Source: Candidatus Lindowbacteria bacterium RIFCSPLOWO2_12_FULL_62_27 (GTDB taxonomy: Bacteria; Lindowbacteria; 2-12-FULL-62-27). Taken from it: 64,000 nucleotides of DNA. Positions 1 to 27,509 of this stretch are shown piece after piece. The notes under the pieces were generated by a model that was not told the DNA's origin, ran no database searches, and worked only from the letters and a program-made list of their open reading frames with translations. The stretch covers positions 62,573 through 126,572 of the forward strand of contig MFPR01000033.1 in assembly GCA_001784175.1 (NCBI GenBank), given 5' to 3'. Every line of letters starts with the position of its first letter. Within the stretch, counting starts at the first letter, position 1. The translations under genes and the position numbers were made by a program.

Positions 1-567
1 GACGTGGTGTCGCTCCTGAACCGCCATTTTTCGATGGCGGTCACGAACCTCTTCAAGGAGGGCGGGACGCTGGACAAATTTCTGGGGGACGGCCTCATGG
101 CGATTTTCGGCGCGCCGGTCCCTCTCAAAAATCCGGCGGAGGGCGCGGTCAAGGCGGCGACGAACATCATCACGGCGACGGAGATTCTGAACGGCCTGAT
201 CGCGGCGGACGGGTTGCCGCCGCTCAAAGTGGGAATCGGGATCGCCACGGGATTCGCCATCGTCGGCACCATCGGATCGCCCGAGCGGCTCGAATACACG
301 GCCATCGGCTCGCCCGTCAATCTCGCGGCACGCCTCACGGCGGTCGCCGAGGCCGGACAGATCCTCATCGACGAGGCTACGGCCGAGGCGCTGTCGCGCA
401 AGGCCCCGCTCAAGGATCTGGGACAAATCGCCGTCAAGGGCTTCAGCGGCCCCATCCGGCATTATCAGGTCACGGTGACGCCGGCCGGGTCAGCCGCTCC
501 GCGGCCCCAAGTGCCGGCGTCTCCGACGCCGGCCGGGTCAGCGCCTCCGGCGCCGGCCGGTCAATAA
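1..567 (+). CDS. Class III adenylate/guanylate cyclase, C-terminal part (5' truncated by window)
   Basis: The reading frame is open from base 1, so the N-terminus lies outside the window. What remains is the C-terminal two thirds of a class III cyclase homology domain: DKFLGDGLMAIFGAP carries the second metal-binding Asp, and the GSPVNLAARL stretch matches the conserved helix near the active site. The family makes cAMP or cGMP from ATP or GTP. The last 30 residues are a Pro/Ala-rich tail encoded by the two-hairpin repeat element, which also supplies the end of the gene. It converges with the minus-strand small gene and overlaps its 3' end by 7 bp. The window also holds a second cyclase and two cNMP-binding proteins that could respond to its product. 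The nucleotide specificity is not clear from the visible part. Confidence 0.85.
   Translation, partial: DVVSLLNRHFSMAVTNLFKEGGTLDKFLGDGLMAIFGAPVPLKNPAEGAVKAATNIITATEILNGLIAADGLPPLKVGIGIATGFAIVGTIGSPERLEYTAIGSPVNLAARLTAVAEAGQILIDEATAEALSRKAPLKDLGQIAVKGFSGPIRHYQVTVTPAGSAAPRPQVPASPTPAGSAPPAPAGQ
478..562 (+). repeat. Two-hairpin GC-rich element, copy A, inside the cyclase 3' end
   Basis: The core GCCGGCGTC-TCC-GACGCCGGC is a perfect 9-bp stem with a TCC loop. It is flanked by a second hairpin of the type GGCGC-TCC-GCGCC, with CCCCAAGT between them. This copy is read in the CAA-GTG-CCG frame (Q-V-P-A-S-P-T-P). Related copies lie at 7450, 8833, 27381 and, more weakly, 24412. Confidence 0.75.
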
Positions 568-956
568 AGAGGGGAGTGGACGTCCGTTTTCAGCACGTAG
601 GTAGGCTGGCCGCCCACCGTGTCAGTTTGCTGGATGACGTAAAGCTGCTTGTTGTGGCAGACGAGGTCGAATTGGGCGAAGCCGAGATTCTTGTACGCAT
701 GGATCCGGAATTCGTTGTCTTTGGCTTTCAAAATATCCTTGACCTCGTCGGGCGGGAAATCTTCATTCAGTTCCTCGCCTTTCATGAGACGCATGATTTT
801 GAGAACATTGTTCGGTGACAGTCCCTCCTGCTGAAGCTCCTTTCGAATCGCATCCGGCGGCGCGCCCCCCGCGAGCTTCTGCTTCATTCGGTCGACGGTC
901 TTCAAGAGGTGCTTTTTCATCATGACGAAGATGGTCGTGCGGTCGCCCGGGCTCAA
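561..956 (-). CDS. Small kinase-associated protein, paralogue 1
   Basis: This 131-residue soluble protein has no family that I recognise. It is paralogous to the products at 4193-4585 and 13863-14249. All three have an N-terminal helical half (xGDxT near the start, then a segment ending in GLSP/GFSP/GFSA-x-N/H) and a beta-rich C-terminal half. The TTG start at 956 is chosen because it restores the xGDxT motif shared with the paralogues; an ATG at 923 is the alternative. It is the last gene of the operon small-kinase-PP2C-kinase-small and overlaps no stop codon of the kinase (4-nt gap). The C-terminal half resembles the juxtamembrane module of the membrane kinases, which hints at a shared binding partner; this is inference. 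Confidence 0.7.
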   Translation of the reverse strand: MSPGDRTTIFVMMKKHLLKTVDRMKQKLAGGAPPDAIRKELQQEGLSPNNVLKIMRLMKGEELNEDFPPDEVKDILKAKDNEFRIHAYKNLGFAQFDLVCHNKQLYVIQQTDTVGGQPTYVLKTDVHSPLY

Positions 957-960
957 GGCG

Positions 961-2226
961 CTATTTCACCGTGATGTGGGGTTTGAGTTTTTCGAATTTC
1001 TTTTCTCCGATGCCCGGGATGGTCCTCAGATCCTCGACGCTCGCGAATTTCCCGCCGCGCGCCTCCCGCGCCTTCAGAATTTTCTCGGCCATGGACGCGC
1101 CCACACCCGGCAGGCGGTCCAAGTCGGCGGCGGTCGCCGTGTTAAGGTTGATCAGCTCGCCCTCGGCCATGGGTGGCGTGGGCGAGGTCGAGTGGCTGCT
1201 CGATTTCGGGCGGGGAGCCGAAGCCCTCGAAGCGCCGGCGGGCGCGTCATCCGCAGTGCGTGACCCGCCCGGTCTCAGGACCAGAACAAGCCCCACCGTC
1301 AGGACCAGCGCCGCGGCCGCGCCACCCCATATGATCGAGGGTTTGTGGTACCACGGCCGAAGTTCCAGATTCGCGCGGCTGTAAACGCCGGACATCGTGC
1401 CTTCCATCAGCTTCAGCGCGTTTTCCAGCTCGACGTACAGCTCACCGATCGACGCCCGGCGCTCGTTTTTGTCCTTCGCGAGGCACCGCATGATGACCTC
1501 GTCCAGGTACGGCGGTATTTTGGGATTGATTTCGATCACGCGTTTGGGCATCTCGTTGTTGATGCGTTCGACGACCTGCCAGAGCGTCGCGTCCGGGGAC
1601 TGCGGCGGGAACGGCACCTGGCCGGTCAGGGATTCGTAGAGGACGACGCCGAAGGAATAGATGTCGGTGCGCTGGTCCAGATTGGCCTCGCCGGCGAGCT
1701 GTTCGGGCGACATGTATTCGACCGTGCCGAGGACGGAGCCGGTGGTGGTCATTTCGGATTTTTTCTCCCGCGCGATCCCGAAGTCGAGGAGCTTGGCGGT
1801 GTCGCCGTCGCCCACGATGATGTTGTGGGGCTTGATGTCGCGGTGAATGAGGTTCATGTCATGGATGTACCGCAGGGCGCCGGCAATCTGAAGGCCGATC
1901 ACGAGCCCCCGCCGGGCTTTGAGGGGCCCGCCATCGGTGATGATTTTTTTGAGAGACTGGCCTTTGAGAAGTTCCATCACGAAATAGTGCTGCTCGATTT
2001 CCGTCGCGTAAATCTGAACGATGTTGGGATGCTTGAGCTTGCCGAGGGCCTTGGCGTCGTTGAAAAACCGGCTCACCGATTTTTCGTCGGTCCAGAGGTG
2101 CTCGTGCAGGATCTTGATGGCCACCTCCATGTCGATGGTTGTATCGATGGCGCGGTAGACGGTCCCCATGCCGCCGATGCCGATTTCCTCGTGAACCTTG
2201 TATTTTCCCAGTTTCTCGGGGGGCAC
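961..2226 (-). CDS. Transmembrane Ser/Thr kinase with extracytoplasmic ComEA-type HhH domain
   Basis: The 421-residue protein has a Hanks-type kinase domain at about 8-270: glycine loop GIGGMG, VAIK Lys38, HRDIKPHN with Asp130, DFG 148-150 and SPE. A single membrane helix at about 298-317 follows a basic stretch, so the kinase should be cytoplasmic. A Ser/Pro/Ala linker leads to an HhH pair at about 359-421 (INLNTATAADLDRLPGVG, then IPGIGEKK), the fold used by ComEA to bind DNA outside the membrane. Receptor kinases usually carry PASTA, TPR or propeller sensors, so an HhH sensor is unusual. The GTG start overlaps the PP2C stop in TAGTG, which implies translational coupling. It is one of only two kinases here with the canonical catalytic-loop Lys. 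Confidence 0.92.
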   Translation of the reverse strand: MPPEKLGKYKVHEEIGIGGMGTVYRAIDTTIDMEVAIKILHEHLWTDEKSVSRFFNDAKALGKLKHPNIVQIYATEIEQHYFVMELLKGQSLKKIITDGGPLKARRGLVIGLQIAGALRYIHDMNLIHRDIKPHNIIVGDGDTAKLLDFGIAREKKSEMTTTGSVLGTVEYMSPEQLAGEANLDQRTDIYSFGVVLYESLTGQVPFPPQSPDATLWQVVERINNEMPKRVIEINPKIPPYLDEVIMRCLAKDKNERRASIGELYVELENALKLMEGTMSGVYSRANLELRPWYHKPSIIWGGAAAALVLTVGLVLVLRPGGSRTADDAPAGASRASAPRPKSSSHSTSPTPPMAEGELINLNTATAADLDRLPGVGASMAEKILKAREARGGKFASVEDLRTIPGIGEKKFEKLKPHITVK

Positions 2227-3173
2227 TAGAGTACTCCTTTTTTGAGGTACGTGCAGGTTCGGCCCGAATGACAGGTCGTAAACGCCGCCACTGGAGCGGC
2301 TGACGGCTCGGCGGAAACGCGCGCCAGCACGACGGTCACGTTGTCCCGCCCGCCGGCTTGCAGGGCGGCTTTGATCAGCGCGGCGGCCTGGTCGGTCGCC
2401 GTTCCACGCTCCAGAAGGATTTTTTCAATCGCAGTGTCGTCGATCATATCTGTGAGACCATCTGTGCAAAGCAGTATAAGATCATCCGGCGACAAACTCA
2501 AGGTCGAATATTCGGGATCGAGGACGGGTTCCTTGCCGATCACCTTCGTCACCATGTGCCGCATGGGATGCACCCTCGCGTCTTCGCGCGTGATCCGGTT
2601 CAGACGGATCAGTTCCGACATCAGCGAATGATCGCGCGTGACCTGCTTGAGCCGACCCCCGCCGAGTACATAGGCACGGCTGTCGCCGGCGTGCGCGAGG
2701 TGGAGCGTCGTGCCCTGGAGGACGGCGGCCACGGCCGTGGTCGCCATGCGGTCAAAAATTCCGCGCCGGCCGCCCTCGCTGCGAACGAGATCGTGCGAGA
2801 CGGAGAGGCTGTTCGCAACATGCTCGGCAGCCGGCGCCGATCCCAGAGCGAGGACCGTGCGGATCATGTCGGCCGCGACGGTTTTGACGGTGAGATTGGA
2901 AGCGACCTCGCCCAGCTCCTCGCCGCCCACACCATCCGCGATCAACAGCACCGTCACCGGCTGCGATGCGGGGCCCCGCGAGAACCGCAGGGCCGCGTGC
3001 GCATCCTCGTTGTTCGTCCGCACGTTTCCCATGTCCGTCTGGGCGGTGAGGTCCGGCAGCGGGTCCGTGGAGATGGTCCACTCCTTCCAGCCGTGCTGGA
3101 CAAGGATGGGGTTCAAGAGCCCCCACAGTTTGACGATATCGAGAAGATCTTCGTCTTTTTTCACGGCGTCCAT
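2226..3173 (-). CDS. PP2C-family Ser/Thr protein phosphatase
   Basis: This 315-residue soluble PPM/PP2C phosphatase would remove phosphates placed by the flanking kinases. Its motifs appear in order: NNEDAH (about 54-59), IADGVGGEE with metal-binding Asp80, HAGDSRAYV, DHSLM, CTDGLTDM and GGRDNVTVVL. An N-terminal segment of about 40 residues (ending KEWTIST) and a C-terminal tail (AFTTCHSGRTCTYL) lie outside the catalytic domain. Both are recognisably shared with the second PP2C at 24490-25536, so they may be docking elements. It sits between two kinases in one operon: 9 nt after the upstream kinase and overlapping the downstream kinase start by 1 nt. Confidence 0.93.
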   Translation of the reverse strand: MDAVKKDEDLLDIVKLWGLLNPILVQHGWKEWTISTDPLPDLTAQTDMGNVRTNNEDAHAALRFSRGPASQPVTVLLIADGVGGEELGEVASNLTVKTVAADMIRTVLALGSAPAAEHVANSLSVSHDLVRSEGGRRGIFDRMATTAVAAVLQGTTLHLAHAGDSRAYVLGGGRLKQVTRDHSLMSELIRLNRITREDARVHPMRHMVTKVIGKEPVLDPEYSTLSLSPDDLILLCTDGLTDMIDDTAIEKILLERGTATDQAAALIKAALQAGGRDNVTVVLARVSAEPSAAPVAAFTTCHSGRTCTYLKKGVL

Positions 3174-3182: not shown

Positions 3183-4196
3183 CTACGCCTGCGCCACAGT
3201 CTGCCGCGCGACCAGCCGAAGCCGGCCCTTGGAGGGAAATTCGGCGACGATGTAATCCAACCCTTCCGGCGTCTGTCCCAGGTCAACGATGAGACCGCGC
3301 TCGCCGAAAACGGCATGGTCCACGAATGTGGAGAGCGGAAACCGGCCGTCAAACGCGTACGGCGCCGTCCGCGGCTCGTGCGGCGCGCCGGCCAGCGCGT
3401 CCAAAAATTCCCGGGCGGTCTGGAACCGCTTCGCCGGATCTTTCTGCATCGCCACTTGAACGATGTTCGCCGTCGTCTCGGAGACGTCCGGCCGCAGGGA
3501 CCGGATCGGGGCGAATGTGAATTTCGGATCGTTCCATTTCCGGAGAATCGACAGGGACGTGTCGTCTTTGAAGGGCGCGGACCCCGACAGCGCGCTGTAG
3601 AGCGTGAGCCCGACGGCCCACAGGTCCGCGCGATGATCGACGGTTTTGGCGTCGACAAACTGTTCCGGCGCCATGTAGGCGGGCGAACCGAAATGGGAGC
3701 CGGTCACGGTGAGCGTCGCGTCCACGACCATCTTCGACAGACCGTAGTCGATCAGTTTGGCCGCCCCAGAAGCCAGATAAATGTTTTCCGGTTTGATGTC
3801 CCGGTGGATCGCGCCGCCGTCGGGCAGCGTGTGGGCGTAATCGAGGGCGGACAGGACCTGCCGCGCGATGTCGACCGCCTCGGTTTCCGGAACGGCCGAC
3901 CGGTACATCCGCTCAAGGAGCGTCTCGCCCTCCAGAAGCTCCATCGCATAGTAGTGGACGTCCTTTTCGACGCCGGCGCCGAGCAGGCGGATGATGTTGG
4001 GATGATCGAGCCGCCGGAGGATGGAGGCCTCGCGATCGAACCGCGCGCGGAAATGCTCGTCCCGCGACAGAAACGCCGGCAGAACCTTGAGCGCCGCCCA
4101 CTGGCCGGTTTCGACATGCCGGGCCTTGTAGACCACGCCCATGCCGCCGTGCCCGAGGCTCGTAACCGCCTCGAACGGTCCGAAACGCTCGTTCAC
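3183..4196 (-). CDS. Soluble Ser/Thr protein kinase with C-terminal beta module
   Basis: The 337-residue kinase has GHGGMG, an ALK Lys, canonical HRDIKPEN, a DYG in place of DFG, and APEQF. No transmembrane segment is seen, unlike most kinases in this window. After the kinase domain (about 1-270) a segment of about 65 residues, with a hydrophobic patch and GLIVDLGQTPEGLDYIVAEF, aligns loosely with the RYxL..VYLP..RWAVV module of the membrane kinases. The GTG start overlaps the stop of the upstream small gene in GTGA. The pairing of a soluble kinase with the small protein and a PP2C suggests a cytoplasmic branch of the system. Confidence 0.92.
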   Translation of the reverse strand: MNERFGPFEAVTSLGHGGMGVVYKARHVETGQWAALKVLPAFLSRDEHFRARFDREASILRRLDHPNIIRLLGAGVEKDVHYYAMELLEGETLLERMYRSAVPETEAVDIARQVLSALDYAHTLPDGGAIHRDIKPENIYLASGAAKLIDYGLSKMVVDATLTVTGSHFGSPAYMAPEQFVDAKTVDHRADLWAVGLTLYSALSGSAPFKDDTSLSILRKWNDPKFTFAPIRSLRPDVSETTANIVQVAMQKDPAKRFQTAREFLDALAGAPHEPRTAPYAFDGRFPLSTFVDHAVFGERGLIVDLGQTPEGLDYIVAEFPSKGRLRLVARQTVAQA

Positions 4197-4623: not shown

Positions 4624-4651
4624 ACTATAAATGACGCCGGGACGTTGTCAA
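4624..4651 (-). promoter_or_regulatory. Sigma-70-type promoter of the small-kinase-PP2C-kinase-small operon
   Basis: On the minus strand TTGACA (4651-4646) is followed by a 16-nt spacer and TATAGT (4629-4624). Transcription would start near 4617, leaving a leader of about 30 nt with an AGGAGG ribosome site before the ATG at 4585. It lies in the short divergent gap with the plus-strand kinase. Confidence 0.65.
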
Positions 4652-4702
4652 CCTCGGAATTTAAACTTGCGCAACCCTCCGGCCTATGTTCCAATTTTAT
4701 CT

Positions 4703-6463
4703 GTGATACCCGCGTACGTCGGCAAATACAGGATCCTTGAAGAAATCGGCCGGGGTGGAATGGGCGAGGTCTATCTTGCCGAGGACGCCATCCACAAGAA
4801 CCGGGTCGCGCTGAAACTCCTGCCGGAATTTCTGTCCAAAAACGAATCCTTTCAGGAACGGTTCGCGCGCGAGTGCAGGGCGCTTCGAGGCCTCGATCAT
4901 CCCGGAATCCCGAAGCACTTGGAGGATGGCGAGGTCGACGGCCGCCGCTATTTCACGATGGAATACGTGGAAGGCCGCATGCTGTCGACCCTCCTGGAAT
5001 CTCATCCGGACAGGGTGAATGAAAAGTTGATTCAGGACGTGCTGTACACGGTGGCGAAGGCGCTGGCCTACGCGCACGGCCGCGGCATTCTCCACCGGGA
5101 CGTGTCTCCGAGAAACATCCTCGTCGCCAAGTCAGGCGAGGTCAAATTGATTGATTTCGGCATCTCGAAACTGGCGGACGAGATAACGTTGACCGCGACC
5201 GGCCAGCATCTCGGCACACCGGCCTTCATGGCGCCAGAACAATTCTCGGCCCCCGGCGCGGGGGATGTGGACGGGAGAGCCGACGTCTGGTCGCTGGGGG
5301 TCGTGGGATTTCAGATGCTGACCGGCCGGTTGCCGTTTCCCGGCGAAACCCAGATTACCTTGATGCGGAAGATTCTGGACCCGGCGGTGCCGGTGCCCGC
5401 CGTTCTGGAGGTCCATCCCTCCGCGCCGGCTTCTCCTGCGCGAATCGTGGACCGCGCCCTTCAAAAAAACCGCGCCCATCGGTACGAATCGGCCGAAGCG
5501 ATGGCCCGCGCCCTCGAACAGCCGAACGAGCTTCCGGACGAAACATTCAGCCCGTCCCAGCGATATTGGCCGAATCAAATCGTCTACCTGCTTCACGCGA
5601 AGCGCTGGGCGCTGGTCGAGGAGGAAGGCGCCTTCGGCGAGTGGACCTATTTTGGGTTCGCCCGTCAGGGAGGGGATGTGAGCCGCAGGGTTTGTGGGTC
5701 CGGGTCCGCCGTTCAGTTGGCGCCCGAAGCGAAGTGCACCGAATGCAGGGGCCGAATGACGACCGCCCGGTTTTGTTCGGCCTGCGGGCTGATTGCGAAA
5801 GATGCCGTCTCGCTGTGCTTGCCTGTGATCGCGCGGGGCCGGGCAGCGCAAACTTCCGGACCCGGCCGGTCGAACAAGAAGAGGATACTGGCCGCGGCGG
5901 GCGCCATTGCCGCAGTGGGGGTGGGCCTGTTCTTTTGGCTGAGGCAGCGTCCGACCGCCAAAGATCCGACGGTGTATGCCGGCACGACGGGCCGAACGCC
6001 GGTCCAGTCAAGCATCATAGTTCCGGTCGACCCTTCCAAAATCAACATCAACGCCGCGCCGCTGAAGGAGCTGGGGCGCATCCCCGGACTTGGGAAGAAG
6101 GACGCCCAGCAGATCATCCTCCTGCGGGAGATCGCCGGGCCCTTTCAATCCCTCGATGATCTCTTCATGATGCCGGGAATCTCAGGAAAAGATATGCAGG
6201 CACTCAAGCCGCTCGCCTACGCAGGCGCGGCGGCCGAAAAACTGCCGATGCGACCCAAAGTGAATTTGAATACCGCAACGCTCGACGAATTGAAGAAAAT
6301 TTTCCCCAAACTGGACGTGCATGATTCGCTGGAACCTCTTCTTGAATACCGTAATACACGCAAACATTTCCGCGCGCTGGAGGAGATCGCCAACGTGCCC
6401 GGATTCGAGACGTTCGAGAAGCGCTACTGGCTGGTCAGCCGGCTGGCCACCGTGACCCCATGA
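4703..6463 (+). CDS. Transmembrane Ser/Thr kinase: kinase, beta module, zinc ribbon, TM, two HhH units
   Basis: The GTG at 4703 is taken as start (586 residues) because it places GKYRILEEIGRGGMG near the N-terminus as in the paralogues, and because the frame's upstream ATG at 4631 lies inside the divergent promoter. No clear ribosome site supports either. In the new numbering the order is: kinase (about 5-270) with HRDVSPRN, where Ser replaces the usual catalytic-loop Lys; RYWPNQIVYL..KRWALVEEEG module (about 286-325); zinc ribbon CTEC..CSAC (345-361); membrane helix about 395-413 after KKR; HhH units at about 445-506 and 519-582. The protein ends in KRYWLVSRLATV, a tail shared with two other kinases here. 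Its stop overlaps the next kinase start in ATGA. Confidence 0.9.
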   Translation: MIPAYVGKYRILEEIGRGGMGEVYLAEDAIHKNRVALKLLPEFLSKNESFQERFARECRALRGLDHPGIPKHLEDGEVDGRRYFTMEYVEGRMLSTLLESHPDRVNEKLIQDVLYTVAKALAYAHGRGILHRDVSPRNILVAKSGEVKLIDFGISKLADEITLTATGQHLGTPAFMAPEQFSAPGAGDVDGRADVWSLGVVGFQMLTGRLPFPGETQITLMRKILDPAVPVPAVLEVHPSAPASPARIVDRALQKNRAHRYESAEAMARALEQPNELPDETFSPSQRYWPNQIVYLLHAKRWALVEEEGAFGEWTYFGFARQGGDVSRRVCGSGSAVQLAPEAKCTECRGRMTTARFCSACGLIAKDAVSLCLPVIARGRAAQTSGPGRSNKKRILAAAGAIAAVGVGLFFWLRQRPTAKDPTVYAGTTGRTPVQSSIIVPVDPSKININAAPLKELGRIPGLGKKDAQQIILLREIAGPFQSLDDLFMMPGISGKDMQALKPLAYAGAAAEKLPMRPKVNLNTATLDELKKIFPKLDVHDSLEPLLEYRNTRKHFRALEEIANVPGFETFEKRYWLVSRLATVTP

Positions 6464-8352: not shown

Positions 8353-9921
8353 TCATTCCACCGTCGCCAGTTTGGAGACCAGCCAGTACCGCTTTCCGGT
8401 TGTTGGAAATCCCCGGACGTTGGCGACGTCTTCGATGGTCTTGAAGGGACCGTTCTTCTGCCGGTGGTCGAGCAGCTCGGCCAGTTCCTTCCACGGATTG
8501 TTCGTAGCGTGAACATTGTATAGTTGAACAAAGACGGCCTTGAGTTCCGCTTCCGTGGCCGTGTTGATGTTGATCTTCTTTCTCTTCGGCAGCGCCTCCT
8601 TGGGCGGCCCGGCGCGGGCGATGGATCTTAGGGCCTCCAGATTCTCGGGTCTCATGCCCGGCATCATGAAGAGTTCGTCGACGCGGGCGAAGGGGCCGGC
8701 CATTTCACGGAGGATGACGATCTGCCGGGCAGTATAGGGATTGAGAGGCTCAAGGTCCGCCAGGGCTTTTTCGGAGGCCTCGTTGATGTTCACAAGCGAG
8801 GTGTCGCCTGACTCGATCCATCGGGGCTCAACGGGGCCGGCCGGCGTTGGGTCGGCGTCGGAGACGCCGACACTTGGGGCGCCGGAGGCGCTGATCCGTG
8901 ACGCCGGCACTTGGGGCCTCGGAGAGGCTGATCCAGAGACGCCGGCATCACGCGCCGATACGAGCCGCCATCCACCCCACACCAGGGCCGCAAGGACGAC
9001 GACGACGGCCAATCCGGCCGCCATGACAGGGATGCCGCGCGGGGTGAGCGCGCGCGCGGGCGACGGCGTCTGCGAGACGGCCACGGGTTGGCCCGGTGGT
9101 CCCGCACTATCCTCCAGGATTTCCGCGACCTGCCGGTACCTGGCGCCGATCCGCCGCTGGAGACATTTGCGGATGATGCTCACCGACCGCGGGGACAGGC
9201 TGGGATTCAGGGCGCCGACATCGGGCGGATCGAACCGCGGGTCCAGGATTTTCCGGATGACGGCGGGATTCGTTTCTCCCTCAAACGGAAGTTGTCCTGA
9301 CGCCAGTTGATACCCGAGAACGCCGAGCGACCAGATGTCGGCGGATTCGGTCACGTTCTTGGACGAGTCGATCTGTTCCGGCGCCGAATAATGGGGCGTG
9401 CCGAGAATCTGGCCGGTCAGGGTAAAGTGCGCCTCCTGAACCATTTTCGAAAGGCCGAAATCCGTGATGCGGATTTGACCGTCGGCCAGCACGATGATGT
9501 TTCCCGCCGTCAGGTCCCGGTGCAGGACACCCTGTCGATGCGCGGCGGCGACGCCCTCGCATATCTTCGCGAACAGGCCCCGCCACTCGTCGTCGCCGGG
9601 CAGGCCGGCCCGACGGGCCAGCCAAGTCCGCATATCCGCGCCTTCGATCCATTCCATCGCGAGAAAATACCGGCCGGCGTCCATGCCGAAATGGTAGGCG
9701 CGCGGGATCATCTCATGCGAAAGGGTCAGATAGACGCGCGCCTCGCGCCGGAATCGCTCGACAAATTCCTGCCGGTCGCTGAACGACTCCGGAAGAACCT
9801 TCACAGCCACCACCTTGCCGTCCTCCGGGTCCTCCGCGCGGTAGACCGTGCCCATGCCGCCGCTGGCGACGACCGACTGAATCTTGAACCGGCCGATCCA
9901 TTTGGGGGTGCCGGCGGTCAT
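8353..9921 (-). CDS. Transmembrane Ser/Thr kinase with two extracytoplasmic HhH units, no zinc ribbon
   Basis: The 522-residue protein has a kinase domain at about 9-270 (VAVK Lys41, HRDLTAGN 135-141 with Thr in place of the catalytic-loop Lys, DFG 154-156, SAPEQ) and a membrane helix at about 297-315. A low-complexity linker at about 322-366 is almost wholly encoded by two tandem copies of the two-hairpin repeat. HhH-like units follow at about 376-437 and 448-518, ending in KRYWLVSKLATVE. It lacks the RYxL module and zinc ribbon, so together with 9918-11759 it forms a second kinase subtype (PEDG..VAVKVLPE, CLQRR). It overlaps the upstream kinase by 4 nt (ATGA) and converges with the plus-strand kinase ending at 8319. 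Confidence 0.92.
   Translation of the reverse strand: MTAGTPKWIGRFKIQSVVASGGMGTVYRAEDPEDGKVVAVKVLPESFSDRQEFVERFRREARVYLTLSHEMIPRAYHFGMDAGRYFLAMEWIEGADMRTWLARRAGLPGDDEWRGLFAKICEGVAAAHRQGVLHRDLTAGNIIVLADGQIRITDFGLSKMVQEAHFTLTGQILGTPHYSAPEQIDSSKNVTESADIWSLGVLGYQLASGQLPFEGETNPAVIRKILDPRFDPPDVGALNPSLSPRSVSIIRKCLQRRIGARYRQVAEILEDSAGPPGQPVAVSQTPSPARALTPRGIPVMAAGLAVVVVLAALVWGGWRLVSARDAGVSGSASPRPQVPASRISASGAPSVGVSDADPTPAGPVEPRWIESGDTSLVNINEASEKALADLEPLNPYTARQIVILREMAGPFARVDELFMMPGMRPENLEALRSIARAGPPKEALPKRKKININTATEAELKAVFVQLYNVHATNNPWKELAELLDHRQKNGPFKTIEDVANVRGFPTTGKRYWLVSKLATVE
8833..8946 (-). repeat. Tandem pair of two-hairpin GC-rich elements, copies C1 and C2
   Basis: Two copies lie head to tail on the minus strand inside the kinase linker. 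C1 is read A-P-S-V-G-V-S-D-A-D, while C2 is read R-P-Q-V-P-A-S, so the two neighbours are translated in different frames. Confidence 0.7.
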
Positions 9922-18840: not shown

Positions 18841-18891
18841 TATCTTATCAGAAACCAATAAGACCCGACCGCCCCTCAGAACGTGTGAATG

Positions 18892-18920: not shown

Positions 18921-18927
18921 CGCGTGG

Positions 18928-21285
18928 ATGCCTGCAGACGCGCGATTCGGCGACTACCAATTGATCCGGGAAATCGGACATGGCGGGATGGGGGCGGTCC
19001 ATCTGGCCGCGCGGCCGGGCGATCCACGGCCCGTGGCGTTGAAAATCGTGCCGGACTATCTCTCCAGAAATCAGACGTTCCGCGACCGGTTCGCCCGCGA
19101 GTGCCAGTCGCTCCGGCGGCTCGAGCATCCCGGGATCCCGCGCATTTATGAGGACGGCGAAATCGACGGCCGCCGGTACCTGGCCATGGAATACGCGGAG
19201 GGCCAAACGATCGAGTCGCTCCTCGAATCGCCGGACAGTCGGGTTTCGGGGGAATTTGTCCGAACCCTCCTGACTGGCGCGGCCCGCATTCTCGACTACG
19301 CCCACGGACGCGGCGTGATCCATCGCGACATCTCCGCGCGCAATATCATCGTCACGCCGTCGGCCGGCATCAAGCTGATCGATTTCGGCATCTCCAAACT
19401 GGCGGACGAAGTCACGCTGACGATGACCGGCCAGCACCTCGGCACGCCCCTCTACATGGCGCCGGAGCAATTTGCCTCGGGCGGCGCCAAATCCATCGAC
19501 GCGAGGGCCGATTTGTGGTCCCTCGGGATTGTGGGATTCTGCCTGCTCACCGGGAAAGCGCCTTATGTGTACGACAATCATCTTACGCTGATGCGGCAGA
19601 TCATCGACCCCGAGATGGTCCTTCCGCCGGCGCTCGATGCGAAGCCGGACGCCGACACCGGCGTCGCCGCCGTGGTGGATCGCCTCCTGCAGCGGAACCC
19701 CGAGCACCGGTTTCAGACGGCGGCGGCGCTTCTCGAGGCGCTCCTGCATCCCGATCAGCCGCTGCAGGAAACCTTCACGTCCGGCCGCAAGTACGCCCTC
19801 AACGAGATCGTGTATCTTCCGCACGTCAAGCGATGGGCGGTGGTGAACGAGCGGGGACGGCTGGGGCGCGCTCCTTACGTGGGGCTGATCCATCACGGCG
19901 GGACCGCGAGCGGCCGGGTATGCGGGATCAAAAAGTCCGTCGCGGAAACAGCCGCGGAACCCTGTCCGGAATGCGGCGGAAAAACAGCAAAGGCGGCCCC
20001 TCAACAGACGGATGTCGGTGGGTTCTGCCTGTCGTGCGGGTTGATTTCCGATTCGTTGATGCCGCTGGGCCGGAAAACCGAAACGAGGGCGTCGGCCGCG
20101 CGCCGGCGGATACTCAAACGCCGTCTGTCCCGCGCCGGGATATGGACAGCCGGTCTCGTATCCGCGGCCGTTCTGATCCATGCAGGGTGGGACCGGTTCC
20201 GCCCGGCGCCTCCGGAGGATAGGGCGGCGGTCGGTTTGATCGAAAGGGAATTTTCCGAAGTCTCCACCAAGTACAACAAGGATGAAGGACTGGTCATGGA
20301 CGTCAATACCGCAGGATTCGAGGATCTGGTGAAGATCAAATTCATGAGCGACAACCGCGCGCTGTTTCTCATCGCCTACCGCCACAATCACGGCGCGTTC
20401 AAAAATATGGCAGACGTCCAAAGCGCCTTGAGCCTGACGGGGCAATACCAGACGGTCCTGGCCCAGTTGAAGGTTGCCTCGCAGTCAGCCGCGCCGCCCG
20501 ACCCCGAATTTCTTCGGAGGTACAGACGCGTCAATATCAACAGCGCCGCTCATGACGAGCTGGTGACGATACCGTTCGTTTCCGAGAAAACGGCCGAGGG
20601 AATCCACGCGTACCGCAAATCCCATGGCAACATGCGGACCATCGACGACGTGCTCAATTCCGGCAAGAGCGAATACGCCTCGCAAATCAAACGCCACCGC
20701 ATGGCATGGTTTGATTTTGTGTCGCTGGGCGACGCCTCTCTCGATCGGACATTTCAGCAGGCCGTGGACGTCTATTATGCCGGCCTTCGGGCGGCGTCCC
20801 AAAAAATTCCGGAATTCACGCGGATTGATCTGAACCACGCGACCGTTCTGGAAATGTCCAAGACCCTGAGAAGCAGTTGGGACGCGCTGGCCATCATGAT
20901 GCACCGACACAAGTACGGCGCCTACCGGAGCGTGGAGGAGTATGTGAAGACCACGAGAATGGAGCGGGCGTTCACCAAGAACGAACGGATGCGCGACATG
21001 AGCCGTCTGACCCTGGAAGCCGCATACGTCACCCCCGGCGACCGGACGGTCACCCTCGACCCGGAGTTCTTGCGCGACTGGGGCGCGCCGTTGAATCTGA
21101 ACACGGCGCCGGACGAGCGAATCGTCCGGATGCCGTTGTTGCTGAAGAAAGAGAAAGAGACGCTTTTGGCGGCCCGGCACGCGCGGAGGCTCCGGTCGGT
21201 GGACGAGCTCTGGCCATTGATGGAGCAAGACGGCCGCGCCCAAAAACGGTTCGATCTCTTGAGGGACTTCGTGACGGTGAAATAA
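18928..21285 (+). CDS. Large transmembrane Ser/Thr kinase with zinc ribbon and four HhH-like units
   Basis: 785 residues from the leaderless ATG at 18928. Order: kinase about 7-272 (HRDISARN 132-139, Ser for Lys; DFG 152-154), GRKYALNEIVYLP..KRWAVVNERG module 286-310, zinc ribbon CPEC..CLSC (346-370), strongly basic stretch, membrane helix about 404-421, then an extracytoplasmic region of about 360 residues. That region has HhH-like units near 455-515, 534-600, 632-700 and 720-785, each opening with (V/I/L)N(I/L)N(T/S)A or a variant (DVNTAG, NINSAA, DLNHAT, NLNTAP). It ends in LLRDFVTVK, as does the next kinase, with which it is clearly a tandem duplicate. The next ATG follows one base after the stop. 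Confidence 0.92.
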   Translation: MPADARFGDYQLIREIGHGGMGAVHLAARPGDPRPVALKIVPDYLSRNQTFRDRFARECQSLRRLEHPGIPRIYEDGEIDGRRYLAMEYAEGQTIESLLESPDSRVSGEFVRTLLTGAARILDYAHGRGVIHRDISARNIIVTPSAGIKLIDFGISKLADEVTLTMTGQHLGTPLYMAPEQFASGGAKSIDARADLWSLGIVGFCLLTGKAPYVYDNHLTLMRQIIDPEMVLPPALDAKPDADTGVAAVVDRLLQRNPEHRFQTAAALLEALLHPDQPLQETFTSGRKYALNEIVYLPHVKRWAVVNERGRLGRAPYVGLIHHGGTASGRVCGIKKSVAETAAEPCPECGGKTAKAAPQQTDVGGFCLSCGLISDSLMPLGRKTETRASAARRRILKRRLSRAGIWTAGLVSAAVLIHAGWDRFRPAPPEDRAAVGLIEREFSEVSTKYNKDEGLVMDVNTAGFEDLVKIKFMSDNRALFLIAYRHNHGAFKNMADVQSALSLTGQYQTVLAQLKVASQSAAPPDPEFLRRYRRVNINSAAHDELVTIPFVSEKTAEGIHAYRKSHGNMRTIDDVLNSGKSEYASQIKRHRMAWFDFVSLGDASLDRTFQQAVDVYYAGLRAASQKIPEFTRIDLNHATVLEMSKTLRSSWDALAIMMHRHKYGAYRSVEEYVKTTRMERAFTKNERMRDMSRLTLEAAYVTPGDRTVTLDPEFLRDWGAPLNLNTAPDERIVRMPLLLKKEKETLLAARHARRLRSVDELWPLMEQDGRAQKRFDLLRDFVTVK

Positions 21286-21286
21286 G

Positions 21287-23605
21287 ATGGAGTTCGGTAA
21301 TTTCAAGCTGATCCGTGAGCTGGGGCATGGCGGGATGGGCGCGGTATACCTGGCGGAACGGCCGGGCGGCGGAAACGCGGTTGCTTTGAAAATCCTGCCG
21401 GAACACTTCACCAAAAACGAAACTTTTATCATGCGGTTCCGGCGCGAGTGCGACCTCATGCGCCGGCTGGACCACCCGGGAATCCCCCGCCTGTGTGACG
21501 AAGGCGAAGCCGGCGGCCGGCGATATCTGGCGATGGAATATGTGCCCGGCCTTTCACTCGAACAGTATCTGGCGGACGCGCAAGGCCGCGTCAGCCCTGA
21601 AAAGGCGCTGGAGGTGCTTGGCGGCGTCGCGCGAATTCTGTCTTACGCCCACCGGCAGGGCGTGATCCACCGCGACGTTTCGGCCAAAAATATTCTGCTC
21701 GGAGACGGCGGCGAGATGAAACTGATCGATTTCGGGATCGCCAAACTTGCCGATGACATCACCCTCACGGTGACGGGACAGCATCTGGGCACGCCGTCGT
21801 ATATGGCGCCGGAACAATTCTCAGGCGCCGGAACAAAAGCGGTCGGGGCGCAGGCGGACCTCTGGTCGCTCGGCGTGATAGGGTTTCAACTGCTCACCGG
21901 CAGGCTCCCGTTTGAAGGCGAGACGCCCATGACCGTCATCCGCCACATCATCGATCCGGCCGTATGGACGCCACCCGTGCTGGACGTCAATCCTTCGGCC
22001 CCGCCGGCGCTGGCGGCGGTGGTCGACCGGCTGCTGCAAAAAGATCCGTTGCACCGGTATCCGACCGCGGACGACCTCGTGCAGGCGCTCGCGCTGAGCG
22101 CGTCGGAACAGCAGCCTCGCGAGACTTACGATCCCAAGCGGCGTTATGGGCTGGACGATATCGTGTATCTGCCGCGCCTCCAGCGATGGGCTGTCGTGGA
22201 CGAGGAGGGCACGTTGAAGAAATCGACCTATGTGGGTCTGATACACCACGGGGGCCAAAGGAGCCGCCGGGCGTGCAGAATTAAAAAATATGAAAAAAGC
22301 GATTCGCCATGCGCGGAATGCGGCGGCAGCGCTGCGACGGAGGGGTTCTGCCCGGCCTGCGGTCTGATTGCGCCTCAAAACGAGTCCCTCTGCCGGCCGG
22401 GAATGACCCGTCATCTGCGCGGCCGCCGCCGAACCCGGATTCGAACGCTCTCCATGGCTGTCGCTTCGGCAAGCGTTCTTCTGCTGGCCGGATGGTCCGT
22501 CTTGTCGTGGAGCCGGCGCCAGACTTCGACGGAGGACCCAGCGACTGGGTTATTTAAAAAAGCGGATTCAGGCCGATTCGGGAAAGTGGACGGGCTCGTG
22601 CTGGACGTGAACGCGGCGACGTTCGAAGATCTCGTCAAAATAAAAAATATGGGAGCAGACCGGGCGCTCTTCCTTCTGGCGTATCGGCATCGGCACGGCG
22701 CTTACAAAGACCTCACGGACGTCGAATGGGCCCTCAAGCTTTCGAGGGATTATGGCAGAGAGGAAACAATTTCTCATCTCACCGTCCAGTCTCCAACCAG
22801 CGCCCCACCCGACTCGGAATTTCTCAAACGATACAAGCGGGTGAACATCAACCAGGCGGGCATGGACGAACTTATGTCCATTCCGTTTGTCGGGGATAAA
22901 CTGGCGCAAAAGTTCCTGGAAAGACGCGGCACATCCGGCCCGTTTCGAAGCCTCGAAGATGTTCTCGGATCGAGAACGGCCCTCGTCCGGAATGCCAAGC
23001 TCACCGCGTGGCTGGATTTCATCTCGCTCGGAGACCCTGCGCTGGACCGCGCATTAGAGCAGGAGGTCGACGAATATTACGCGGGTACGTGGCAGACCGG
23101 CCGGCAGACCTCCAATCGGGACATAAGGGACGTTCGGGGTCAACTGGATCTGAACCACGCCCCGCTGCAGGACCTGAAGAGACAGATCGACAGCTCCTGG
23201 TGGGCGATGTATGTCCTGATGAGCCGTCACAAGCGCGGTTCGTTCCAATCGGTCGATTCGCTCATGGACCGGATGAACAAGTATTATGTTTCATCGGGGA
23301 GTAAAACCTGGGAAAAAATGGCCGTCAAATACCGCCGTGTCCTGTATGTCACTCCGGGTGATCGGACGGTAACCGTCGACTCCGGATTCTTGAAGGATTG
23401 GGGGCAGCCGCTGAACCTCAAATCGGCCGCAGAGGAACGAATTCAGGCCATCCCGTTTTTGAAGAAGCCGGAAAAGGAGGCCGTTCTCGCAGCGCGAAAA
23501 ATTGGCTCTTTGCGATCGCCTGACGACCTTCGAAAGTTGATGACGCAGGAGAACAGCGCCGAAATGCGATTTCAAATATTGAGAGACTTCGTGACGGTGA
23601 AATAG
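21287..23605 (+). CDS. Large transmembrane Ser/Thr kinase with zinc ribbon and four HhH-like units (tandem paralogue)
   Basis: 772 residues, colinear with the preceding kinase: kinase about 5-268 (VALK Lys35, HRDVSAKN 128-135, DFG 148-150), KRRYGLDDIVYLP..QRWAVVDEEG module 284-308, zinc ribbon CAEC..CPAC (342-358), membrane helix about 388-406, and four HhH-like units near 438-500, 517-580, 619-690 and 708-770. The motif VTPGDRTVT joins the third and fourth units in both paralogues. In the last unit the HhH signature is degenerate (NLKSAAEERI), so not all units need bind DNA. The ATG follows the previous stop after one base, and the next gene starts one base after its own stop. Confidence 0.92.
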   Translation: MEFGNFKLIRELGHGGMGAVYLAERPGGGNAVALKILPEHFTKNETFIMRFRRECDLMRRLDHPGIPRLCDEGEAGGRRYLAMEYVPGLSLEQYLADAQGRVSPEKALEVLGGVARILSYAHRQGVIHRDVSAKNILLGDGGEMKLIDFGIAKLADDITLTVTGQHLGTPSYMAPEQFSGAGTKAVGAQADLWSLGVIGFQLLTGRLPFEGETPMTVIRHIIDPAVWTPPVLDVNPSAPPALAAVVDRLLQKDPLHRYPTADDLVQALALSASEQQPRETYDPKRRYGLDDIVYLPRLQRWAVVDEEGTLKKSTYVGLIHHGGQRSRRACRIKKYEKSDSPCAECGGSAATEGFCPACGLIAPQNESLCRPGMTRHLRGRRRTRIRTLSMAVASASVLLLAGWSVLSWSRRQTSTEDPATGLFKKADSGRFGKVDGLVLDVNAATFEDLVKIKNMGADRALFLLAYRHRHGAYKDLTDVEWALKLSRDYGREETISHLTVQSPTSAPPDSEFLKRYKRVNINQAGMDELMSIPFVGDKLAQKFLERRGTSGPFRSLEDVLGSRTALVRNAKLTAWLDFISLGDPALDRALEQEVDEYYAGTWQTGRQTSNRDIRDVRGQLDLNHAPLQDLKRQIDSSWWAMYVLMSRHKRGSFQSVDSLMDRMNKYYVSSGSKTWEKMAVKYRRVLYVTPGDRTVTVDSGFLKDWGQPLNLKSAAEERIQAIPFLKKPEKEAVLAARKIGSLRSPDDLRKLMTQENSAEMRFQILRDFVTVK

Positions 23606-23606: not shown

Positions 23607-24488
23607 ATGTCGTTCTGGAGCCGATCCGCCTGCCCCGCCTGCGGCGCCCGGCGCGGTCCGGCGGCGTTCTGCCGGACCTGTGGCGTTCTCGCCGACGCGC
23701 CGGCGCCTCGAACAGCCCCGGCACGACGGAGAATCGCAGCGGCCGTCGGCGGAGCGCTCCTGGTTCTCGCATCGTCGGTGGGATTGGGTCTTTGGCTTCG
23801 GAAGCCCGATCAGGCGCCGGTCGAGGTCATCAAGCGCGCGAGATCAGCCCCGAAAAAATCCGCCGGCCGGCTGGCGACCGGAGAAAAAGTCAATATCAAT
23901 CTGGCAGGTCTGGCGGAGCTTCAGCGCCTGCATGGCGTTGGCCCGATGCTGGCGGACTGCATGATGGCGTTCCGCCTGACGTATGGCGCCTTCCAGTCCG
24001 AATCCGACTTCCGGTTTCTGCTCGGATCCACGCGGTCGACGATGGACGAGCGCCGCGAGCAGATTGAATATGGAGACGGCCGCACAGGCCCGATCGATCC
24101 GGAATTCTTGAGTAAATACCCGACCCGGTACGACATGAACGCGATGTCGGAATCGGACATGATCCGGATTCCCTATTTGAAGGAAGCCATCGCGCATTAC
24201 ATCGTGGACTATCGCGGCGCCCATGGCGGATACCGGTCGATGACGGAACTCATGGACGCCTTCAAAGACCTGAACATTCGCGGCGGATTTGAGGGGGAAG
24301 TGCGCAAGCGGTACACGCTGACATTCGCGATGTTTTTTTACGTCGACGATAAGGAAATGAACTGGACGCGCCGGAACCGCGACGAGTGGATGCGGCTGGT
24401 GTCCGGGCCGAAGGCGCCGCCGGCGCCGGCCGGGTCCGCGCCGCAGGCGCCGGCCGAGCCCGCGCGCGATCCGGCCGAGGGATATTAG
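23607..24488 (+). CDS. Kinase-less zinc-ribbon membrane protein with extracytoplasmic HhH-like units
   Basis: 293 residues. A zinc ribbon (C9xxC12 ... C22xxC25) starts the protein, followed by a basic stretch, a membrane helix at about 43-64 and two HhH-like units (about 95-155 with KVNINLAGLAELQRLHGVG, and about 172-225 with DMNAMSESDMIRIPY). It looks like the second half of the upstream kinases without the kinase domain, so it may be a co-receptor or decoy. The Ala/Pro-rich C-terminal tail contains a GC-rich segment related to the two-hairpin repeat. It is in the same operon (1-nt gap to the upstream stop) and converges with the PP2C gene. Confidence 0.85.
   Translation: MSFWSRSACPACGARRGPAAFCRTCGVLADAPAPRTAPARRRIAAAVGGALLVLASSVGLGLWLRKPDQAPVEVIKRARSAPKKSAGRLATGEKVNINLAGLAELQRLHGVGPMLADCMMAFRLTYGAFQSESDFRFLLGSTRSTMDERREQIEYGDGRTGPIDPEFLSKYPTRYDMNAMSESDMIRIPYLKEAIAHYIVDYRGAHGGYRSMTELMDAFKDLNIRGGFEGEVRKRYTLTFAMFFYVDDKEMNWTRRNRDEWMRLVSGPKAPPAPAGSAPQAPAEPARDPAEGY
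24412..24475 (+). repeat. Degenerate relative of the two-hairpin GC-rich element, copy E
   Basis: GCGCCGGCCGGGTCCGCGCC and a following GCAGGCGCCGGCC resemble the flanking half of copy A but lack the CCCCAAGT core. It encodes the Ala/Pro tail of the zinc-ribbon HhH protein. Confidence 0.4.
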
Positions 24489-24489: not shown

Positions 24490-25536
24490 CTAGACTTTGA
24501 TCCGGTACGTGATCGCGCGGCCGAACTGGCAGATCGTGAAAGCCGCCTCATCGGAAGGCGGGGGTGGAACGGACGGGCGGCAGACCGCTCTGGCCAGCGC
24601 GATGGTGGTGTTGTCCCGGCCGCCGGCCTGAAGCGTTTCTTGGATCAGTTCGCGGACCTGGTCGGACACGAGCGGCGTTTTTCGCAGCACTTGCTCGATG
24701 GCCCGGTCGTCGAGCATGTCGGTCAGGCCGTCCGTGCACAGCATGACGACATCGCTCGGCGAGACCTTCGCCGTTGATGACTCTGGCTCGACGCCGTCCG
24801 ATTTGCCCACCGTTCGCGTGATGACATGGCGCAGGCGGTGACGGCGCGCCTCCTCCGGCGTGATCTTCTTCTGCCGCATCAGGTCCATGACGACCGAGTG
24901 GTCCAGCGTCACCGGCCGCAGGCCCTCCTTTCCGAAAACATACCCACGGCTGTCACCGGCGTGCGCAACGTGCAGGGTCTGGCCCGACAGGACGGCCACC
25001 ACCACCGTGGTGGCGATGCCGTCCGGCATGCCGCGCCGCCCGGCCTCCCGCAGGATGCGATCATGGCCGGTCAGGATGCTCTCCGTGAGATCGCGAGCCG
25101 AAATCGCCGGGGCGTAGTCGACCACGAGGTCGTCGGTGTTCATCGTGGCCGCGCGAAATCCTATATCGTCCGAAGCCGTCGCGACGGCGACGCGCCGAAA
25201 GGCCCGGCAGAACAGGTCGACCGCGATAGATTTCACCAGCATGTTCGACGCGACTTCTCCCGACTCCTCGCCGCCGACGCCATCCGCGACGATCAGGACG
25301 GTCACGGGCTGCGCCCCGCGGGGCGGTCGGAAACGCCACGCGACATGGGCATCCTCGTTGTTGGACCGGGAATTGCCGACGTCGCTCCCGCCGGCCATAT
25401 CGTCCGTCCGGGATTCCATGCCGGACCATTCCCGGAACGACCGGGCTGCCTCCTGGTCACAGATGGTGTTCCACAGTTCGCTGATGTCGATAGGACCGGT
25501 GTAGGAGTCCAAGTCTCTCTTCCGTTCGGTTGTCAT
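24490..25536 (-). CDS. PP2C-family Ser/Thr protein phosphatase (second copy)
   Basis: 348 residues from ATG 25536 (a TTG at 25548 is also in frame). The motifs NNEDAH, VADGVGGEESGEVAS, HAGDSRGYV, DHSVVMDL, CTDGLTDML and GGRDNTTIAL define an active PPM phosphatase. Compared with the first PP2C it has an extra stretch of about 25 residues after the second motif. Both share an N-terminal segment (IDISELW...REWSGMES here) and the C-terminal tail AFTICQFGRAITY. It is transcribed alone, divergent from the gene at 25641 and convergent with the HhH kinase operon, so it is well placed to reset that branch. Confidence 0.92.
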   Translation of the reverse strand: MTTERKRDLDSYTGPIDISELWNTICDQEAARSFREWSGMESRTDDMAGGSDVGNSRSNNEDAHVAWRFRPPRGAQPVTVLIVADGVGGEESGEVASNMLVKSIAVDLFCRAFRRVAVATASDDIGFRAATMNTDDLVVDYAPAISARDLTESILTGHDRILREAGRRGMPDGIATTVVVAVLSGQTLHVAHAGDSRGYVFGKEGLRPVTLDHSVVMDLMRQKKITPEEARRHRLRHVITRTVGKSDGVEPESSTAKVSPSDVVMLCTDGLTDMLDDRAIEQVLRKTPLVSDQVRELIQETLQAGGRDNTTIALARAVCRPSVPPPPSDEAAFTICQFGRAITYRIKV

Positions 25537-25598
25537 CGCTCGTCCCAACGTAGCAAAGCCGTCTGCATTCGGAAAGCCTTATTGTGTTTTTGTCCATA

Positions 25599-25627
25599 TT
25601 GCCCGGCCCGGCGGACAGAGGTAGACT
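25599..25627 (+). promoter_or_regulatory. Promoter of the zinc-ribbon HhH gene pair 25641-27509
   Basis: TTGCCC (25599-25604), a 17-nt spacer and TAGACT (25622-25627). Transcription would start about 6 nt before the ATG at 25641, leaving almost no leader. Confidence 0.45.
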
Positions 25628-25640
25628 GCGAGGCGCGCGA

Positions 25641-26399
25641 ATGAAAAAGGTCATCTGTGTCTGCGGGCAACGGATTTCTCCGAGAATCGCATACTGTCCG
25701 TCGTGCGGCGTCCTGACACAGGACCTCGCCCGACAAAGCGTCGCACGGACGCGATGGTGGATGTGGCTTTCGCTGGCATTCATCGGCGCTGCCGTCCCCG
25801 CCGCGATCTTCATCCGGACCGGCAGGTCCAACACGAACGCGGTACCCGCCGGGCCGTCGGGGGAATTGTTGTTCAAGAAAAACATTCGACTGCAGCCGGG
25901 CGAAATGCTCAATATCAATACGGCCACCCTGGATGAACTGAAGCGGGTGCCGCATGTCAACCGGCAGATGGCCGTCATCATCATGGCCCACCGGGCCGGG
26001 CGGGGAGCGTTTGTGGAAAAGGAAGACCTGAAAAAACTCAGCGGGATCACCAACACCGCCTACGACGCGATGGAACCCTTCATCGAAGCCGGCAACGGAC
26101 GGTCCGTCACGGTGGACGGTGAATTTTTCCGGATGTTCCCCCGCAGGATCAACCTGAACACCGCAGTGGAGTCGGACTTGACCCGCGTTCCCTATGTCCA
26201 GAAATATTTCGCCGGTCTTATTCTGGAGTATCGCCAGTCCCACGAATCATTCCGCTCGACCGGCGAACTCGTCGAGGCCTTCAAGAAAATGAGGGAACTC
26301 GGCAACTATAATCAAATGCAGTATTCATCGCCGAAAGAACGTGCCTTCACCATCGAACCTTTCTTCTGCGTGCAGGTCGACGACTGCGGGTGGAAATAG
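25641..26399 (+). CDS. Kinase-less zinc-ribbon membrane protein with two HhH-like units
   Basis: 252 residues from ATG 25641. A zinc ribbon (CVCG..CPSCGVL, residues 6-22) precedes a membrane helix at about 41-58. The extracytoplasmic part has two HhH-like units at about 88-147 (MLNINTATLDELKRVPHV) and 168-225 (INLNTAVESDLTRVPYV). It is close to the product of 23607-24488 but shorter. The next gene begins immediately after its stop codon, so the two are translated as a pair. It presumably belongs to the kinase system as a signalling-incompetent partner; that is inferred from domain sharing. Confidence 0.87.
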   Translation: MKKVICVCGQRISPRIAYCPSCGVLTQDLARQSVARTRWWMWLSLAFIGAAVPAAIFIRTGRSNTNAVPAGPSGELLFKKNIRLQPGEMLNINTATLDELKRVPHVNRQMAVIIMAHRAGRGAFVEKEDLKKLSGITNTAYDAMEPFIEAGNGRSVTVDGEFFRMFPRRINLNTAVESDLTRVPYVQKYFAGLILEYRQSHESFRSTGELVEAFKKMRELGNYNQMQYSSPKERAFTIEPFFCVQVDDCGWK

Positions 26400-27509
26400 A
26401 TGATCAAGGCCTACTCGTGCCGCGTCTGCGAATCGGCCTGGCCCTACGGCGGCGCCTATTGCCGGCGCTGCGGCGTCCTCGGGCCGCCGCTCGGCCGCAC
26501 GCAACCCTGGCGCGTCGCGCTCCTCTCGGTTTTGGCACTCGGGTTGATCGTGGCGGCCGCGATCGGAGTTTGGCGATGGTGGCCGAAATCCGCGCCGGGC
26601 GGCGTTGCGCTGGAAACGATGAGTTTCGTCGTGACGCCCCAGGGCAAAGTCCACCGGTTCAATTGCTGGCTGGTCCGGAGAACCGCGGCCGAAAAGCTGT
26701 CGAACTTTCCGACGATCCATTCGGTGCGAGCCGCCGGGCATCAAAATGACTGCGGGTTCTGCCGCCCCGGCACGCCGCTCCCAACGGCGCTCGAAGGCTT
26801 CACGTTCGGCGCCGTCCCCTCGACCGGGAACGTCCATACCGTCCTGTGCTACTGGATCTATCGGTCGAGCGAAGCGCCGAAAGGCTATACCTCGCTGGAC
26901 GCCGCCGTCCGGGACGGATTCCGGCCCTGCACGCTCTGCATGCCGGGCGGGGTAGCGCCTACGGCGCCCGGCGACGGCGCAGACGATTCTCAGAAATGGG
27001 CCGAGATCATCGGCCCCACGTGGGACTCCGAACTCTGGTACGCCTACGTCTTGAAGGAGGTCGAATTCCCAAACACGCCCGTGGACGAATTTTTCAAATC
27101 GCTCGGCGTTGAAGGATGGAATCCCCGCTGGACGCCGATCCTCCGCGACAAGGACGGCCGGCCCCGGGCGCTCATCCTCTCGCTGCCGCGCACGAAAATC
27201 GACCGGGCGATCCAGAGCAGGTTTTATGCCGGCGTCATCAAGAAGAAATATACAGACGAAAATTTGCGGCCCGGCATGTGGGTCTACCTCATCGAGATCA
27301 AACGCGACGTGCCCGGCAAGCCCGACGTGACAGACCCGCGGGTCCGCGTCAAAGGGAAACTGCTCCGCGTGGCCGAATTCGACGCCGGCCGGATCAGCGC
27401 CTCCGGCGCCCCAAGTGCCGGCGTCTCCGACGCCGGCCAATTCCGGACCCGGTGGCCCGAATCGGAAGCAGGGCGGACGTTGAGCTTGGAACAACTTTAT
27501 AATGAGTGA
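26400..27509 (+). CDS. Zinc-ribbon membrane protein with two extracytoplasmic Ada-like Cys/His motifs
   Basis: 369 residues. N-terminal zinc ribbon (C7xxC10 ... C21xxC24), membrane helix about 38-56, then two related motifs: VHRFNC (H85, C89) with C118xxC121, and VHTVLC (H146, C150) with GFRPCTLC (C177, C180). This VH...C...GFxPCxxC pattern resembles the Ada-type metal-binding motif found in Ada and appended to some secreted nucleases. The C-terminal 180 residues are unrecognised (possibly another beta domain). Near the end, residues about 329-347 are encoded by the two-hairpin repeat. It abuts the upstream HhH gene with no gap and shares its topology. Confidence 0.8.
27381..27439 (+). repeat. 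Two-hairpin GC-rich element, copy D
   Basis: This is the clearest full copy: GCGCC-TCC-GGCGC hairpin, CCAAGT spacer, then GCCGGCGTC-TCC-GACGCCGGC hairpin. It is read as [15 protein letters not shown] in the protein tail. Confidence 0.78.

Follow-up and report, generated by a model that had tools for sequence, protein, structure and literature searches.

The window analysed here is a 64,000-nucleotide stretch of DNA (G000:C33:62573-126572) from a genome of 4.39 Mb that is 94% complete, and the comparison set consists of three genomes of one family, namely the window's own (G000), G001 and G002. Between positions 961 and 27509 lies an island of ten kinase genes (K1–K10), four kinase-less membrane partners (S1–S4), two PP2C phosphatases and one HEAT-repeat cyclase (Table 1). 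All ten Ser/Thr kinase frames are intact and together span 22.6 kb (961 to 23605), in agreement with the first-pass annotation, which had counted ten in about 22 kb, and they make up half of the 20 kinase matches of the genome (E ≤ 1e-10). Chance clustering was rejected, with 0.1 kinases expected per 22 kb against the ten found. The GC content of the island equals that of its surroundings. The coupling of kinase and PP2C genes, also proposed at first reading, was confirmed, and one of the two phosphatase genes overlaps K1. A small gene without a Pfam match follows K1 directly downstream on the same strand.

Table 1. Genes of the kinase island and its left border (positions in the window).
Feature	Position	Strand	Remarks
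FHA-GAF-cyclase gene, 3' part	1..567	+	whole gene L010 11434-13140; convergent with K1; counterpart in sister kinase block
131-aa gene	561..956	-	no Pfam match
K1: Ser/Thr kinase - TM (aa 298-316) - ComEA-type HhH pair (aa 357-420)	961..2226	-	TIGR00426 61.1 bits
PP2C phosphatase	2226..3173	-	1-bp overlap with K1
K2: soluble Ser/Thr kinase without TM	3183..4196	-	domain scan and hydropathy
K3: kinase - C4 zinc-ribbon motif - TM - two HhH units	4631..6463	+	
K4: kinase - C4 zinc-ribbon motif - TM - two HhH units	6460..8319	+	
K5: kinase - TM - two HhH units, hairpin glycines lost	8353..9921	-	
K6: kinase - TM - DUF1802 - BRCT	9918..11759	-	
S1: zinc-ribbon motif - TM - unnamed tail domain	11756..12655	-	
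K7: kinase ending in marginal TM	12642..13853	-	14-bp overlap with S1
HEAT-repeat protein with class III nucleotide cyclase domain	14264..17293	+	
K8: kinase - TM - DUF1802	17302..18840	+	start within longer frame listed from 16192
K9: kinase - zinc-ribbon motif - TM (weak) - four degenerate HhH units	18889..21285	+	
K10: kinase - zinc-ribbon motif - TM - four degenerate HhH units	21287..23605	+	
S2: zinc-ribbon motif - TM - two HhH units, without kinase	23607..24488	+	
Second PP2C phosphatase	24490..25548	-	
S3: zinc-ribbon motif - TM - two HhH units, without kinase	25584..26399	+	
S4: zinc-ribbon motif - TM - two Cys/His motifs, weakly Ada-like	26400..27509	+	

Kinase Domains and Membrane Topology

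The VAIK-type lysine and the HRD, DxG and APE motifs are kept in all ten proteins, by inspection and by script (the DxG region of K5 and K6 reads ITDFG), and by these motifs K1–K10 are Hanks-type Ser/Thr protein kinases. Hydropathy gives one clear transmembrane helix (TM) in K1, K3–K6, K8, K10 and S1–S4, and in most of these basic residues are richer on the kinase side. K7 and K9 have marginal helices (KD 1.27 and 1.38) in a layout like that of the other island kinases, so that a TM follows the kinase domain in nine of the ten and is absent from K2 alone; the single helix with a basic cytoplasmic flank that had been noted earlier thus holds for most of the proteins, is marginal in K7 and K9, and fails for K2. 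No convincing further TM was found by hydropathy in the kinase tails. A kinase requires cytoplasmic ATP, and with one TM this places the tail outside; the tails are therefore predicted to be extracytoplasmic, and the membrane kinases are, as predicted by hydropathy alone, transmembrane receptor-type Ser/Thr kinases. A CxxC...CxxC motif stands directly before the TM in several kinases and in all four partners, by which S1–S4 resemble the kinases minus the kinase domain. A tree of kinase domains places K1 beside its G002 orthologue and one kinase of G001 (100/99). K2–K10 fall together with other kinases of the family (98/99), the pattern that a lineage-specific expansion in which tails were exchanged would leave.

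Diversity of the Tail Domains

The HHH_3 family (PF12836) matches above the Pfam cut-off in K1, K3, K4, K5, K9, K10, S2 and S3, and by this match their tails are ComEA HhH domains; the island holds 14 of the 32 HHH_3 matches of the genome. TIGR00426 is above its cut-off of 53.1 bits in K1 (61.1 bits), and is likewise above cut-off in K3. ComEA-type HhH units thus end six of the nine membrane kinases, one more than the first-pass annotation had counted. Its kinase-less partners with HhH are found in S2 and S3, while the Ada-like motif that it read in S4 stays below cut-off (PF02805, E 0.052, 14 bits against a gathering score of 23), as does a match of S4 to DUF6233 (1.3e-5). The BRCT domain claimed for one kinase was recovered in K6, where the tail alone scores 22.0 bits with PF00533 (cut-off 21.3) and residues 522–606 match NCBIfam LigA at 1.5e-8; DUF1802, common to K6 and K8, had been missed. 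We also considered DUF1802 as a restriction-associated domain, but the case is weak, since the domain is standalone at most loci read and one fusion looks Mrr-type-nuclease-like by eye. Elsewhere in the genome, contigs C6 and C20 encode two more HhH kinases, both of the type of K9 and K10.

Structure prediction had been proposed as a check on the fold. The AF2 model (two-row) of the K10 tail (pLDDT 72, pTM 0.46) is best matched by ComEA, with a Foldseek probability of 0.90 but an E of 0.32, and it aligns to VIA at Z 8.4 (rmsd 2.1 Å over 63 residues), a Z near 8 being the edge of noise, to 2DUY at Z 7.8, and then to Tex, the pseudopilin XcpK (Z 7.3) and PsbU (Z 6.3). From this model even the degenerate units probably keep the HhH fold, and an extracytoplasmic ComEA-like fold is supported by sequence matches and by prediction alike.

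The tail domain of S1 recurs in a C20 kinase, where it is fused to the kinase, in a C20 partner, and in the second kinase of a G002 cluster described below. It has no sequence match in PDB and no meaningful match in Pfam, and its AF2 model is of low confidence (pLDDT 48); structural matches to Holliday-junction resolvases, splicing endonucleases and EEP nucleases all lie below noise (Z ≤ 6.5) and give only a hint of a restriction-endonuclease-like fold. A further match of the S1 profile (E 4e-8) falls in the N-terminal portion of a G054 protein of 310 aa. The C-terminal half of that protein is similar to an annotated type II restriction endonuclease, and its upstream same-strand neighbor matches a DNA methylase; a link of the S1 tail to restriction systems through this protein is suggestive only. 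Viral contigs yielded no relatives of the S1 or DUF1802 tails.

Comparison with Known Systems

The island kinases share with PknB-type PASTA kinases a cytoplasmic Hanks-type kinase domain, one TM, a C-terminal extracytoplasmic sensor and a PP2C partner. They differ in the sensor, which is built of ComEA-type HhH units, DUF1802/BRCT or an unnamed domain, and in the zinc-ribbon motif that several of them add before the TM. Pfam scans of the island proteins found no PASTA domain, and the PASTA kinase model NF033483 (cut-off 450 bits) gives five of the island kinases 232–306 bits, from the kinase part only. PASTA kinases usually read cell-wall ligands, and it is conceivable, if improbable, that the island tails likewise bind a cell-wall component or another polyanion (peptidoglycan, anionic polysaccharide, RNA) through an old DNA-binding surface. 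The tails are diversified and mostly basic (pI 8.6–9.9 in all measured except S1), a charge that also counts in favor of DNA, and most are poor in Cys, S4 excepted, but no cell-wall-binding domain appears in any tail in the Pfam scans.

A second relative is E. coli YegI with its neighbors PphC (YegK) and YegL, which shares the set of a Ser/Thr kinase, HhH and an adjoining PP2C phosphatase. The HhH of YegI is of another type, an HHH_5 match after the kinase that is below cut-off, unlike the HHH_3 of the island, and it follows a hydrophobic hairpin (two helices by inspection) where the island kinases have one TM; it is therefore probably cytoplasmic. Of the YegI/TerY-P triad the island has kinase and PP2C, and a vWA (TerY-like) gene is absent among the island genes scanned, which do not include every small ORF. 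That the island kinases are YegI-like, with HhH on the cytoplasmic side, thus seems very improbable.

With ComEA itself, K1 shares an HhH pair outside the inner membrane, and differs in that the pair is joined to a kinase through the TM. In the surveys made, this kinase-TM-HhH architecture was found nowhere outside the G000–G002 family. A K1 profile found 36 named loci, of which that of G002 alone has kinase and HhH in one ORF; the wider search for HhH with protein kinase that had been suggested, a full-length K1 profile against 386 genomes (up to four candidates each), gave among the matches listed only G000 and G002 extending through the HhH; and no kinase was present in any of 20 stretches around HhH matches in long frames. 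On these surveys the architecture looks rare, if not necessarily unique. Among the open-access papers searched, none describes a receptor kinase for extracellular DNA.

Conservation of DNA-contact Residues

The K1 HhH pair matches the solved ComEA of B. subtilis at E 6e-15 and that of G. stearothermophilus at E 5e-12. In B. subtilis ComEA the loss of K164 or of K199 (K199A) costs over 2 logs of transformation, and that of K193 or K197 less (PMC9747964); V. cholerae K63 corresponds to K164 (PMC3879209, PMC9747964). We scored the GxG hairpins and these four lysines. K1 reads M,K,K,K at K164/K193/K197/K199 and keeps both GxG hairpins, so that three of four lysines remain and the key K164/K63 is missing, as it also is from T. 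thermophilus 2DUY. The G002 orthologue reads I,K,K,K with one GxG, its second hairpin being GIK instead of GIG, and the ComEA lipoprotein of G000 reads K,K,K,K. The first units of K3 (D,K,A,K) and K4 (T,E,E,K) keep the first GxG; K3 and S2 have lost the hairpins of their second units; and K5, K9, K10 and S3 have neither the lysine pattern nor a complete GxG at the ComEA positions. Between K1 and its G002 orthologue identity is 50% in the HhH, 48% in the kinase domain and 26% in juxtamembrane and linker, and an HhH as conserved as the kinase domain and twice as conserved as the linker argues for selection on the K1 HhH part.

From this, K1 is a plausible sensor of DNA and K3 and K4 are possible ones; the remaining HhH tails are unlikely to sense it in the ComEA mode. 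The first-pass annotation had proposed that such tails may sense DNA or a component with the same folds, a view to be given up if the contact residues were lost in all units; they are lost in most units, and K1 lacks the key lysine but keeps the other three and both hairpins. The genomic context of the sister genus, given below, also speaks for a part of K1 in DNA uptake.

The alternative of most weight is that the tails are protein-contact modules, which would touch envelope, pilus or secretion proteins (e.g., an HhH-bearing secretin or pseudopilins) or each other, with the kinases reporting envelope assembly. PsbU and GspK are examples of protein-contact use of the HhH fold outside membranes, and both PsbU and the pseudopilin XcpK match the K10 tail model in structure. 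G000 itself places HhH in a secretin of 2201 aa as well as in secreted proteins, TPR proteins among them. The HhH of Pasteurellaceae ComE1 binds fibronectin besides dsDNA (PMC2601033). Together with the lost hairpins of K5, K9, K10 and S3, this favors protein contacts for many of the paralogues, but the kept GxG and three lysines of K1 and the placement of its orthologue in a com cluster would go unexplained; we regard this reading as a real possibility that falls somewhat below an even chance.

Other HhH proteins were seen along the way. The secretin (L002 5229-11834, contig C26) has three HHH_3 units toward its C-terminal end, and G001 and G002 have long HHH_3 frames of similar size. Within the window, 41312-42817 encodes a ComEA-type HhH between two PLD-like domains, a possible secreted nuclease with a counterpart in G001 (L054 4715-6220), and 40042-41228, possibly a split or frameshifted gene, holds two adjacent PLD-like half proteins where G001 has one 399-aa protein (L054 6260-7459). 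In other genomes (L100, L103, L106, L108) ComEA-type HhH is fused to proteins that by eye resemble secreted MBL-fold (ComEC-like) ones.

The com Cluster of the Sister Genomes

A contig of the sister genus (G002 C17, JACQOF010000003.1, L051), from a groundwater MAG, carries on one strand ComEC, ComEA (two HhH), an MBL protein, PP2C, the K1 orthologue, two further kinases, an FHA-GAF-cyclase and a ComEA-like lipoprotein (two HhH). The second kinase of this cluster has the S1-type tail. ComEC/ComEA and PP2C/K1 each overlap by 4 bp, a gap of 292 bp separates MBL from PP2C, and one small gene lies opposite inside the run. In G000 (C26) and G001 (C112) the ComEC, ComEA, MBL and HhH lipoprotein genes are contiguous and without kinases, and the 8 kb read around the G000 locus hold none. 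The kinase block is thus placed in the com cluster in one of three genomes, and since two lack it there we see no ground to call this placement ancestral. FHA-GAF-cyclase and PP2C adjoin K1 in both genera, in G000 with the cyclase convergent and the PP2C overlapping. DprA was found in all three genomes. The G001 orthologue of the K1 kinase domain has no HhH tail and lies on a contig other than that of the com cluster; its tail looked OB-like by eye, a reading that found no support. The location of the G002 orthologue suggests that K1 may report incoming DNA to the cell, and speaks for a connection between K1 and DNA uptake.

A Model for K1

Com-cluster location and residue conservation favor DNA as the ligand of K1. 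By its predicted architecture K1 is a transmembrane Ser/Thr receptor kinase with a ComEA-type HhH as its periplasmic end, and we infer that this end most likely binds periplasmic double-stranded DNA, chiefly DNA entering via ComEA/ComEC. Several receptors would cluster on one DNA, so that the cytoplasmic kinase domains meet and autophosphorylation is favored; the adjoining PP2C would reverse it, and the adjoining FHA-GAF cyclase may read phosphothreonine and pass the signal onward as cyclic nucleotide. K3–K10 and S1–S4 would be a lineage-specific expansion with tails exchanged or multiplied (HhH, DUF1802, BRCT, S1 domain), many of which no longer have the ComEA contact residues; their partners are probably other ligands or one another. 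To this account as a whole we give a little less than an even chance. More tentative, and appreciably short of an even chance, is the broader proposal that periplasmic DNA (transforming or environmental) is the K1 ligand, with uptake coupled to Ser/Thr phosphorylation and an FHA-linked cyclase, and that the island is a set of diversified nucleic-acid receptors drawn from HhH, BRCT, DUF1802 and nuclease-associated domains.

If K1 reads periplasmic DNA, natural transformation would be tied to phosphosignalling, and K1 would offer a simple one-protein system for asking whether cells sense imported DNA. Even with a non-DNA ligand, a DNA-uptake domain would have been turned into a receptor head that has multiplied and diversified within a single lineage.

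A Dispersed Palindromic Repeat

A dispersed palindromic repeat with the core GCCCCAAGTGCCGGCGTCTCCGACGCCG has 59 copies in G000, 28 in G002 and 1 in G001 (reversed control 0). In the window it lies at 486-555, 7450-7519 and 27390-27459 and within K5, and it stands in frame within K4, K5, S4, the FHA-cyclase, a C20 partner and a PP2C gene of G002.
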